Positions 25,103-51,029 of a stretch of 64,000 nucleotides of DNA are shown here, in pieces. The DNA lies in the NCBI RefSeq assembly GCF_017901155.1, contig NZ_CP072800.1, positions 248,001-312,000 of the forward strand. The letters run 5' to 3'. The position numbers and the translations under genes are program-made. The stretch comes from Candidatus Thiothrix anitrata. GTDB lineage: Bacteria; Pseudomonadota; Gammaproteobacteria; Thiotrichales; Thiotrichaceae. The notes beneath the pieces are model-generated. The model did no database searches. It was given only the letters and a program-made list of their open reading frames with translations, and was not told the origin of the DNA. Position 1 is the first letter of the stretch, and each line of letters opens with the position of its first letter.

Positions 25103-25213
25103 GGTGGCCTGCATGGGTTCTCCCGCGACGATAGGTGGTGAACCTTGTCAGGCCCGGAAGGGAGCAGCAACAGCCATTGATTCGGGCGCAGGATGTGGCT
25201 GGTGCAGGCTGCC
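25103..25213 (+). ncRNA. ffs: 4.5S (small bacterial) signal recognition particle RNA
   Basis: The core TTGTCAGGCCCGGAAGGGAG followed by CAGCA is the conserved SRP domain IV loop, and GGTTCTCCCGCGACG on the 5' side matches the E. coli 4.5S RNA. The ends GGTGGCCTGCA and TGCAGGCTGCC pair over eleven positions and fix the limits to about 111 nt. It lies 30 bases upstream of the dnaX start, a common arrangement. The 150 bases before it back to 24951 hold its promoter but no gene. Confidence 0.95.
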
Positions 25214-25243: not shown

Positions 25244-26872
25244 ATGAGTTATCAAGTTCTTGCACGAAAATGGCGGCCTCAAGACTTCCAGCAAATGGTT
25301 GGTCAGGCGCATGTGTTACGTGCCTTGATGAACGCTCTGGATGAAAATCGCCTCCACCACGCTTACTTATTTACCGGCACACGCGGCGTTGGCAAAACCA
25401 CTCTCGCGCGAATTTTTGCCAAATGCCTCAATTGCGAAACTGGCGTTACCGCGAAACCGTGTGGCGAATGCCGCAGTTGCCGTGAAATCGCCGAAGGTCG
25501 TCACGTTGACTTGATTGAAGTCGATGCGGCATCACGCACTAAAGTCGAAGACACCCGCGAATTGCTCGATAATGTGCAATATTCCCCCACACGCGGACGC
25601 TTCAAGATTTACCTGATCGACGAAGTACACATGCTTTCCGGGCACAGTTTCAACGCGCTGTTGAAAACACTGGAAGAGCCGCCGCCGCACGTTAAATTCC
25701 TGTTTGCGACCACCGACCCGCAAAAATTACCCGTCACCATTTTATCGCGTTGCCTCCAATTCAACCTCAAGCGAATGCCGGTGGAAATGATCAGCGGGCA
25801 TTTAAGCACGGTGCTGGAACAAGAAGCCATTCCCTTCAGCGAGGCAGCATTGCGGCTGTTGGCGCGTGCCGCTGATGGCAGTATGCGCGATGCGTTGAGC
25901 TTGACCGATCAGGCCATTGTGACTGGCGGTGGCGCGGTTAGTGAAGCTGACGTGCAAGACATGCTCGGCTTGTTACCGCACGAACACCTGATTGGTTTGT
26001 TACAAGCCATTGCTGATGATGACGGGCAGCGGATGTTGGGTATCGTCGCGCAAATGGCGCAGCTCACTACCGATTTTACCGCTGCGGCTGATAGCTTGAT
26101 TGCGTTATTACACAGCATTGCGGTGCAGCAAGTGGTAACACGCGACGATGCCGACGAGGATATTGCGGCATTGGCAAAACTGCTGTCACCGGCAGATGTG
26201 CAGCTTTATTACCAAATGGCATTGTATGGGCGACGTGATTTACCGTTAGCCCCTGATCCGCGTGGCGGGTTGGAAATGCTGTTGCTGCGGATGCTGGCGT
26301 TCCGGCTGGATGATGGTCAATCTCAACCACACTCAACACAGGTTGAGAAAAAAAAAATTGTAGTTGAAGCGGGGAATCCCCCCCACCCTAACCCTCCCCT
26401 GCAAGGGGGGAGGGAACACAAAGTGCCTACCTCTTTCTCTTTGCCCCCTTCCCCCCTTGCGGGGGAAGGGTTGGGGATGGGGGGGAGTAACACCTGGCAC
26501 ACCATCCTCCCCCAGCTCAACCTCTCCGGCATGGCCTTGCCATTGGCGCAACATTGTTTGCTGGAAAGCATTACCGACACGCATATCACCTTGTTGCTGG
26601 ATGAAAGTGGCTCGACCTTGCAAAGCCCTCGCGCTGCTGCGCAATTAAGCGAAGCGTTAGCGCAACATTACGGGCGTGAGCTGCAATTACAATTCACGGT
26701 AACGGTGTTAACTGAGGAAACCCCGGAAAAACGCGGGCTGCGTGAGGCTGCCGAACGCCAAGCAGCCGCTGAAGCCGCCATTACCAATGACCCGTTTGTA
26801 AAGCAATTACAGGAAACGTTTGGCGCGGTAATTGTACCGGGTAGCATCCGTCCGCGCACAAACAGCGGTTAG
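25244..26872 (+). CDS. dnaX: DNA polymerase III subunits gamma and tau
   Basis: A 542-residue clamp-loader ATPase starting MSYQVLARKWRPQDF. Walker A is GTRGVGKTTLARI; the zinc-binding cysteines are CLNCE...CGECRSC; Walker B/sensor is IDEVHMLS; the SRC arginine-finger motif is ILSRCLQF. AAA+ and collar domains end near residue 365. Codons 369-371 then sit in a run of ten A residues (26348-26357). Slipping either way brings a stop within a few codons, so a short gamma form is likely beside full-length tau. Downstream the linker contains a C/G-rich repeat element translated in frame (PNPPLQGGRE...PLAGEGLGMGG). The C-terminal alpha-binding region is intact. Confidence 0.96.
   Translation: MSYQVLARKWRPQDFQQMVGQAHVLRALMNALDENRLHHAYLFTGTRGVGKTTLARIFAKCLNCETGVTAKPCGECRSCREIAEGRHVDLIEVDAASRTKVEDTRELLDNVQYSPTRGRFKIYLIDEVHMLSGHSFNALLKTLEEPPPHVKFLFATTDPQKLPVTILSRCLQFNLKRMPVEMISGHLSTVLEQEAIPFSEAALRLLARAADGSMRDALSLTDQAIVTGGGAVSEADVQDMLGLLPHEHLIGLLQAIADDDGQRMLGIVAQMAQLTTDFTAAADSLIALLHSIAVQQVVTRDDADEDIAALAKLLSPADVQLYYQMALYGRRDLPLAPDPRGGLEMLLLRMLAFRLDDGQSQPHSTQVEKKKIVVEAGNPPHPNPPLQGGREHKVPTSFSLPPSPLAGEGLGMGGSNTWHTILPQLNLSGMALPLAQHCLLESITDTHITLLLDESGSTLQSPRAAAQLSEALAQHYGRELQLQFTVTVLTEETPEKRGLREAAERQAAAEAAITNDPFVKQLQETFGAVIVPGSIRPRTNSG
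26348..26357 (+). promoter_or_regulatory. A10 slippage/frameshift tract in dnaX
   Basis: Ten consecutive A residues follow GTT GAG. In frame zero they encode Lys-Lys-Lys-Ile. A -1 shift reads AAT TGT AGT TGA; a +1 shift reads TTG TAG. Both stop at once, at the end of the clamp-loader domains. Thermus dnaX uses a comparable A tract for transcriptional slippage, and E. coli uses AAAAAAG for ribosomal frameshifting. That it works here is inferred. Confidence 0.6.
26378..26486 (+). repeat. C/G-rich double-hairpin repeat, copy A (inside dnaX)
   Basis: Outer arms CCCCCCCACCCTAA and TTGGGGATGGGGGG enclose two hairpins, CCCTCCCCTGCAAGGGGGGAGG and CCTTCCCCCCTTGCGGGGGAAGG in their cores. The same architecture recurs at 41648-41747 and 50923-51029. 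The element is read in frame through dnaX without a stop and adds about 36 residues rich in Pro, Gly and Leu to the tau linker. It looks like a REP/MITE-type mobile repeat. Confidence 0.85.
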
Positions 26873-41647: not shown

Positions 41648-41747
41648 CCCCCCCCTCCCTAACCCTCCCCCCGCAAGGGGTGGAGGGAACCAGATGTCTT
41701 TTCTTGCTCCCTTCCCCCCTTTCGGGGGAAGGGCTGGGGATGGGGGG
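41648..41747 (+). repeat. C/G-rich double-hairpin repeat, copy B (dctP-dctQ gap)
   Basis: Same build as copy A: outer arms CCCCCCCCTCCCTAA and CTGGGGATGGGGGG, inner hairpins centred on CCCCGCAAGGGG and CCCCCTTTCGGGGG. It fills most of the 133-base gap. Its last GGGGGG lies eight bases before the dctQ ATG, where a ribosome site is expected. Confidence 0.85.
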
Positions 41748-50922: not shown

Positions 50923-51029
50923 CCCCCCATCCCCAACCCTTCCCCCGCAAGGGGTGAAGGGAGCAAGAAAGAGGAGGGGGAAACTCTTGTCCCCTCCCCC
51001 CTTGCGGGGGAGGGTTAGGGTGGGGGGGG
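50923..51029 (-). repeat. C/G-rich double-hairpin repeat, copy C (aceA-rraA gap)
   Basis: Read on the minus strand it has the same order as copies A and B: outer arm CCCCCCCCACCCTAA, a CCCTCCCCCGCAAGGGGGGAGG hairpin, a spacer, a second hairpin with CCCCTTGCGGGG, then GGTTGGGGATGGGGGG. It starts 12 bases after the aceA stop and ends 26 bases before the rraA start, so it may act as a terminator or mRNA 3'-end protector for aceA. Confidence 0.85.

Follow-up and report, generated by a model that had tools for sequence, protein, structure and literature searches.

Organization of the dnaX locus

The window analyzed here, that is, the whole 64-kb stretch of DNA, lies in a contig of 3,546,315 bases from a Thiothrix and carries a dnaX gene for the tau/gamma subunit of DNA polymerase III, which starts with the ATG at position 25244 (Table 1). 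Its product matched the Pfam models DNA_pol3_delta2, ATPase lid, gamma3, and tau_5 and scored above the cut-off of the NCBIfam model PRK07994; domain III, as delimited by Pfam, stops at residue 352. A bacterial small SRP RNA (Rfam RF00169) is located directly 5' of dnaX, at positions 25112–25207.

Sixteen codons past the end of domain III begins a run of ten A (A10), which occupies codons 369–371 and the first base of codon 372 and is directly followed by TT. The original prediction had placed such a tract after the clamp-loader domains and had claimed that a slip by one base in either direction would meet TGA or TAG within five codons. Both points were confirmed: the distance from the run to the stop is 3 nt for TAG and 7 nt for TGA. 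The lengths of the products of the slipped frames (372–374 aa) were read off the sequence.

Table 1. Coordinates of the dnaX features in the window and of the second A10 gene of the genome.
Feature	Coordinates	Strand	Remark
dnaX (DNA polymerase III tau/gamma)	25244..26872	+	542 aa, tau in genomic frame
Hairpin immediately upstream of the A run (stem 6 bp, loop 4 nt)	26332..26347	+	14/14 Thiothrix A10 genes
A10 slippage site (predicted)	26348..26357	+	sequence; 9–11 A in 51/54 assessable family genes
TAG, +1-frame stop (one A lost or two gained)	26361..26363	+	product 372 or 373 aa
TGA, -1-frame stop (one A gained or ribosomal -1)	26365..26367	+	product 374 aa
Dispersed GC-rich inverted repeat in the tau linker, in frame	26377..26486	+	source of downstream hairpins, outside the slippage signal
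tau domain V, predicted to be missing from slipped products	26489..26842	+	PF12170, aa 416–533
A10 of the ChpA-like gene, outside the window	G000:C1 745819–745828 (L272 7320–7329)	-	frame break

No other A10/T10 occurs in the window. Dinucleotide shuffling of its sequence gave a mean of 0.98 A10, so that a single A10 per 64 kb is unsurprising by itself; the role of chance was judged from the relatives rather than from the window. The whole 3.546-Mb genome contains three A10/T10 runs, compared with about 54 expected from the scaled-up window shuffle mean, and eleven runs of exactly nine. The three A10 runs lie in dnaX, between two minus-strand reading frames (L060), and in a ChpA-like gene.

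Conservation of the A run in Thiotrichaceae

Among the 63 Thiotrichaceae genomes of our set, which at the same time represent the whole order Thiotrichales in it, 58 matched dnaX at 1e-60 and five gave no match at that limit. Of the 55 loci examined, 54 were assessable; L043 was excluded, as its contig stops near codon 410 before any run is reached, and G062, G071, and G074, with partial matches or matches ending with the contig, were not among the loci. The longest A run after domain III measured ten in 46 genes, nine in four, eleven in one, and seven in three. It was positioned at codons 363–400, except in L051 (codon 451), and it started in phase 0, 2 or, once, 1, with flanks that largely differ between the genera. 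With phases and flanks varying in this way, conservation concerns the DNA run and not a fixed peptide context.

Codon shuffling of the linker predicted 2.49 genes with at least nine A, whereas 45 of the 48 genes with tau in frame had them, a count to be read with the relatedness of genes within a genus (the family counts are not independent) and with the fact that two of the eight genera (g3 and g6) contribute only one or two genes. This comparison led us to reject Lys codon bias alone as the origin of the run. The three genes with A7 only were L015, L020, and L046. In L020 and L046 the A_AAA_AAA motif is placed in the -1 ribosomal phase, which possibly reflects a change to ribosomal shifting or a loss of the site; L015 comes from an assembly with ambiguous bases.

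Outside Thiotrichales, at least nine A were found in 9 of 90 gammaproteobacterial dnaX genes. These 90 genomes (L058, L059, L063–L090, and L091–L150), taken from 130 matched genomes outside the order, were not sampled at random, most of them being among the closer of these; L056 and L057 duplicate two of the 90, and L075, whose contig ends at codon 387, was scored as lacking the run. In the named set (80 loci among the matches listed, rich in Pseudomonas), A9 was present in 1 of the 73 loci L158–L230, and the loci L151–L157, again among the matches listed, had A10 in two cases, A9 in one, A7 in one, and no run in three (two of which stop with the contig). Thus, the A run occurs elsewhere in the class but is near-fixed in Thiotrichaceae, and the conservation in relatives that the original prediction had proposed as a check turned out to be strong. 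A separate observation concerns L137 (G189, outside the order), in which the genomic frame stops about four codons past an A9 at codon 370; this is apparently a dnaX gene with two reading frames (two-ORF layout).

Stops in the shifted frames

The shifted frames were inspected in the 45 genes that have tau in frame and at least nine A, with a limit of 10 nt past the run and with expectations from codon shuffles. A +1-frame stop was present in 42 of them (7.8 expected), a -1-frame stop in 33 (14.1 expected), and stops in both frames in 31 (1.4 expected); at a limit of 13 nt, both stops were found in 34 of the 45 genes (2.7 expected). The excess of +1 stops extends to all eight genera. The excess of -1 stops was absent in g3 (0/1) and g5 (0/3) and slight in g8 (3/7, with 2.25 expected). 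In the 14 Thiothrix A10 genes the +1 stop at +3 is TAG in 11, TAA in one, and TGA in two, i.e., the stop is retained while its codon changes.

Ribosomal -1 shifting needs the -1 stop only, and the stronger enrichment of the +1 stop agrees with transcripts that are one A shorter or two A longer. The stop pattern, as far as it can be read from the genes compared, therefore favors variation in transcript length over ribosomal -1 shifting alone.

Frame flips in relatives

The window gene, with tau in its genomic frame, lacks the two-ORF layout. This layout was recognized in 6 of the 54 family genes, five of them (L017, L031, L032, L034, and L033) among the eight genes of genus g5, which holds Thiolinea, and one (L026) in g2. 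In these genes the genomic frame closes 1–13 nt past the run, and the Pfam tau_5 match lies in another frame (6/6). Tau is in the -1 frame in five of the six; in the sixth, L033, the run is A11 and tau is in the +1 frame, and as this A11 may be a homopolymer error of A10, the gene was counted but not used for the direction of the shift. The named locus L152 (Thiolinea disciformis) has the run and stops as in L017. Since tau is in frame in the g5 genes L018, L036, and L054, both layouts exist inside one genus. Keeping the run while the product spelled by the genome switches is what would be predicted for a frame-splitting device.

Two further genes end early, and for both of them a frame change at the run was rejected: in L015 the stop lies beside an ambiguous base and tau continues in the same frame, and in L049 a gap of N precedes the frame change.

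RNA structures around the run

In Thiothrix, the hairpin upstream of the run ends exactly at the first A, with an empirical chance per gene of 0.014–0.108. In the window an 8-bp alternative, in which 26341–26348 pairs with 26321–26328, uses the same 3' arm, and the local fold upstream of the run, which employs this variant, has an energy of -10.5 kcal/mol (z -5.4). All six pairs of the hairpin are standard in the 13 distinct Thiothrix rows, and two of the pairs occur as A-U, G-U, and G-C; three pairs are invariant, and one has changed on both sides, among closely related genes. The covariation score was matched by 2 of 500 shuffles, and doubly changed pairs together with pair types (two of five measures) by 405 of 500, so the covariation is modest. 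The hairpin is absent from L015 (A7), from L016 (A9), and from nearly all other genera. As a family-wide element it was rejected, as a similar score outside Thiothrix was obtained in L031 only; the mean upstream z over 50 family genes was about zero. Within Thiothrix, it is the upstream hairpin that appears to be the structure kept in place. Stem-loop-aided transcriptional slippage was reportedly described in IS elements by Penno and colleagues in 2015.

Downstream, the 153 nt from the start of the run in the window fold at -94.9 kcal/mol (z -6.95), and their main stem begins about 20 nt after the run. The strong hairpins indicated by the original prediction thus do exist, but the role of ribosomal stimulator proposed for them could not be upheld, because they belong to a dispersed repeat and just 3 of 50 family genes reach -10 kcal/mol with a structure 5–45 nt past the run. 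Copies of this repeat, roughly 110 bp each, lie in the window within dnaX and at 41649–41747 and 50923–51028. It gave 60 matches in the source genome and was found in 13 of 13 Thiothrix genomes and in none of seven genomes from other families, the family Thiotrichaceae being represented in this search by Thiothrix alone. None of the other dnaX loci compared matched it: L011 carries the same flank without the repeat, and L002 also has no repeat at the dnaX site. Over the 70 nt past the run, z ranged from -4.81 to +1.11 in the 50 genes, no 3' structure being common in place among them. In 7 of 15 Thiothrix genes it was -1.5 or lower, with varying stem distances, which leaves room for a loose 3' effect within this genus.

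By eye, L004, L010, L013, and L014 contain other proline/glycine-rich, repeat-like inserts just past the A run. With different inserts in the same place, the tau linker looks like a tolerated landing site.

A second gene with A10

The A10 outside the window that breaks a frame is located shortly before a 600-aa frame closes, at the point where the -1 frame coding for Hpt, HATPase, CheW, and receiver domains becomes open. No Pfam or NCBIfam model matched the 600-aa part, and the best NCBIfam model for the kinase part is a CheA, below its cut-off. We take the kinase gene to be ChpA-like; the short product of about 600 aa is perhaps FimL-like. A match was found in 32 family genomes, and 30 loci were examined (relatives L231–L260). 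The split layout is alike in 16 of 16 Thiothrix, the run being A10 in 15 and containing two ambiguous bases among its ten positions in G004; the -1 frame is open for at least 468 codons in 15 of them and for 126 in G004. The 14 family loci outside Thiothrix had A9 or A10 in ten cases (g3, g5, and g6) and A6G in four. The A6G of the three g2 loci forms a correctly phased A_AAA_AAG; that of L255 is out of phase, and the -1 frame is closed there.

A separate start of translation was considered for the kinase in the 24 genes with a recognizable Hpt motif (six loci without one are outside this number). There is no ATG, GTG, or TTG in the -1 frame between the run and this motif in nine genes, so a whole kinase could not arise from a separate start in these. 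The other 15 have one or more such codons, including an ATG in six of them, and separate initiation would be possible there. Overall, the ChpA-like gene looks like a second gene whose frame is changed in a programmed manner at a run of this type. In a limited literature search no report of a frame change in it was found, and the main text of PMC3711429 does not contain chemotaxis, CheA, or Hpt.

Two long frames of the source genome, L264 and L270 (G000:C1 1658109 and 3108917), encode an identical peptide ahead of an in-frame A9 and diverge soon after it. They are possible further slippage sites or duplicated genes.

Proposed mechanism and alternative explanations

Based on the conservation of the run and of both stops, RNA polymerase or the ribosome very probably slips at the A10, so that a single gene gives both a shorter and a longer protein. 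More specifically, we consider programmed slippage at the A10, by which a single dnaX gene would supply both tau and gamma, the likely explanation. In this model, RNA polymerase would slip on the A10 and produce mRNAs with fewer or more than ten A. Those with ten (or seven, or 13) would be read through to tau, and the other lengths would meet TAG or TGA 3–7 nt past the run and yield a gamma of 372–374 aa, consisting of domains I–III and a short Lys-rich tail. The small hairpin of the nascent RNA that abuts the run in Thiothrix probably aids the realignment of the RNA-DNA hybrid; a downstream hairpin, not yet made when the polymerase slips, could not act in this way, and an upstream one could. 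Sequence comparison shows that the run and both hidden stops are conserved, that Thiothrix has the abutting hairpin, and that the frame flips in relatives; the occurrence of slippage in these cells, the polymerase and not the ribosome as the slipping machine, the ratio of the products, and the role of the hairpin are what we infer.

The main alternative is that the ribosome makes gamma by -1 frameshifting on the A_AAA_AAA contained in the run, as in E. coli but without the stimulators known there. ARAGORN, applied around 45 tRNA matches of the genome, found tRNA-Lys UUU as the only Lys tRNA, and this, together with A_AAA_AAA inside the A10, makes ribosomal -1 shifting possible. In E. coli, tRNA-Lys UUU is likewise the only Lys tRNA. 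The enrichment of -1 stops and the -1 position of tau in most two-ORF genes also agree with this explanation. However, seven A would be enough for the ribosome, yet exactly ten are present in 46 of the 54 genes and nine or more in 51; no G follows the run in the Thiothrix genes, and the +1 stops are more enriched than the -1 stops. A Shine-Dalgarno (SD)-like motif within 20 nt before the run was found in 3 of 50 genes, and a structure just 3' of it likewise in 3 of 50. The polymerase is favored by the constancy of the ten-A length, by the +1 stops, and by the missing ribosomal stimulators, and we regard it as considerably more likely than the ribosome to be the slipping machine; frameshifting by the ribosome as the source of gamma seems rather unlikely. 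Both routes would give nearly the same gamma.

The run might also be a contingency (phase-variable) tract that changes its length by replication slippage, given that homopolymers are mutable, that the genomic frame differs between species, and that L033 has A11. Such a tract would hardly be expected to stay at ten in 46 of 54 species genomes or to reside in a core replication gene, and six species would then be without an in-frame tau altogether; we find this very improbable. Hardly any weight can be given to coincidence, in which a Lys-rich disordered linker happens to hold AAA AAA AAA A: the linker is variable, AAA outnumbers AAG among the Lys codons of Thiothrix dnaX outside the run (185 and 112), and a single A10 per 64 kb is common enough in shuffled sequence, but the 45 of 48 genes against 2.49 expected, the runs of 9–11 A kept in different phases and flanks, the enriched hidden stops, and the presence of only three A10 in the genome speak against it. 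Equally far-fetched is an origin of gamma by proteolysis of tau, as known in Caulobacter (PMC5009743), or the absence of gamma with another role for the run, which would leave the hidden stops in both frames and the two-ORF relatives unexplained.

Programmed slippage on the A10 may also extend beyond dnaX. In a joint reading, towards which we lean slightly, A9–A10 is a standard frame-splitting cassette of Thiotrichaceae used in at least two unrelated genes, dnaX and the ChpA-like gene; selection would act on the mixture of products and not on the product spelled by the genome, a view suggested by the frame flips inside a single genus; the nascent hairpin would tune slippage in Thiothrix dnaX; and the ChpA-like gene of g2 has A_AAA_AAG, the sequence of the E. 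coli-type ribosomal site, at the place that the A run occupies in other genera. If this is true, the products of the ChpA-like gene would be a short protein without a family match (about 600 aa) and, from the -1 frame, the full kinase, and slippage on A10 could be followed independently in two genes of the same cells. The question of whether gamma is needed by bacteria is an old one, and this family offers a near-invariant site with the frame flipping between species.

Comparison with known systems

The slippage trick itself is known from Thermus; our comparison of genes adds its conservation throughout the family, the hairpin that abuts the run, the flips of frame inside a genus, and an apparent second gene. 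Within the paper collection searched, no report joined Thiothrix with dnaX and frameshift, or with slippage.

In E. coli, dnaX uses a -1 programmed ribosomal frameshift (PMC3711429, PMC5009743), and the accounts in these sources share with the window gene the production of tau and gamma from one gene and an A-rich shift site. In contrast, the window dnaX has no A_AAA_AAG, SD-like stimulator, or conserved 3' stem-loop of the kind they describe; none of six SD motifs was found within 20 nt upstream of its run.

A hairpin next to a slippery run is described for IS1447 (A9) and, cited in the same source, for an IS630 element (PMC6211511). The Thiothrix hairpin resembles the elements presented there in adjoining the run on its upstream side in all 14 A10 genes, but it belongs to a chromosomal replication gene and is a small 6-bp stem whose role would be that proposed above.

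Genes of dnaX with two ORFs are listed in PMC3711429 (Antonov et al., 2013): 17 genes of 12 genera, nine of them with ten A, and members of Thiotrichaceae may already be among these ten-A genes. The six relatives in which tau needs a frame change at A9–A11 are alike; the window gene differs in having tau in frame.

The closest parallel is the transcriptional slippage in dnaX of Thermus thermophilus (Larsen et al., 2000, as presented in PMC1088944 and PMC5009743). The run there is A9, as opposed to the A10 of Thiothrix, and belongs to a different phylum; slippage is known in Thermus and is predicted from sequence in Thiothrix. The abutting upstream hairpin is a Thiothrix feature, Thermus having been compared by run, frames, and stops alone. 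In both, according to these sources, tau is encoded in one frame, the A run follows the clamp-loader part, and stops are nearby in both other frames. The window dnaX has domains I–III before the site, domain V after it, at least nine A on the sense strand, and both stops, so that the original prediction of a Thermus-like slippage site making gamma appears well supported by the run, the two stops, and their conservation.
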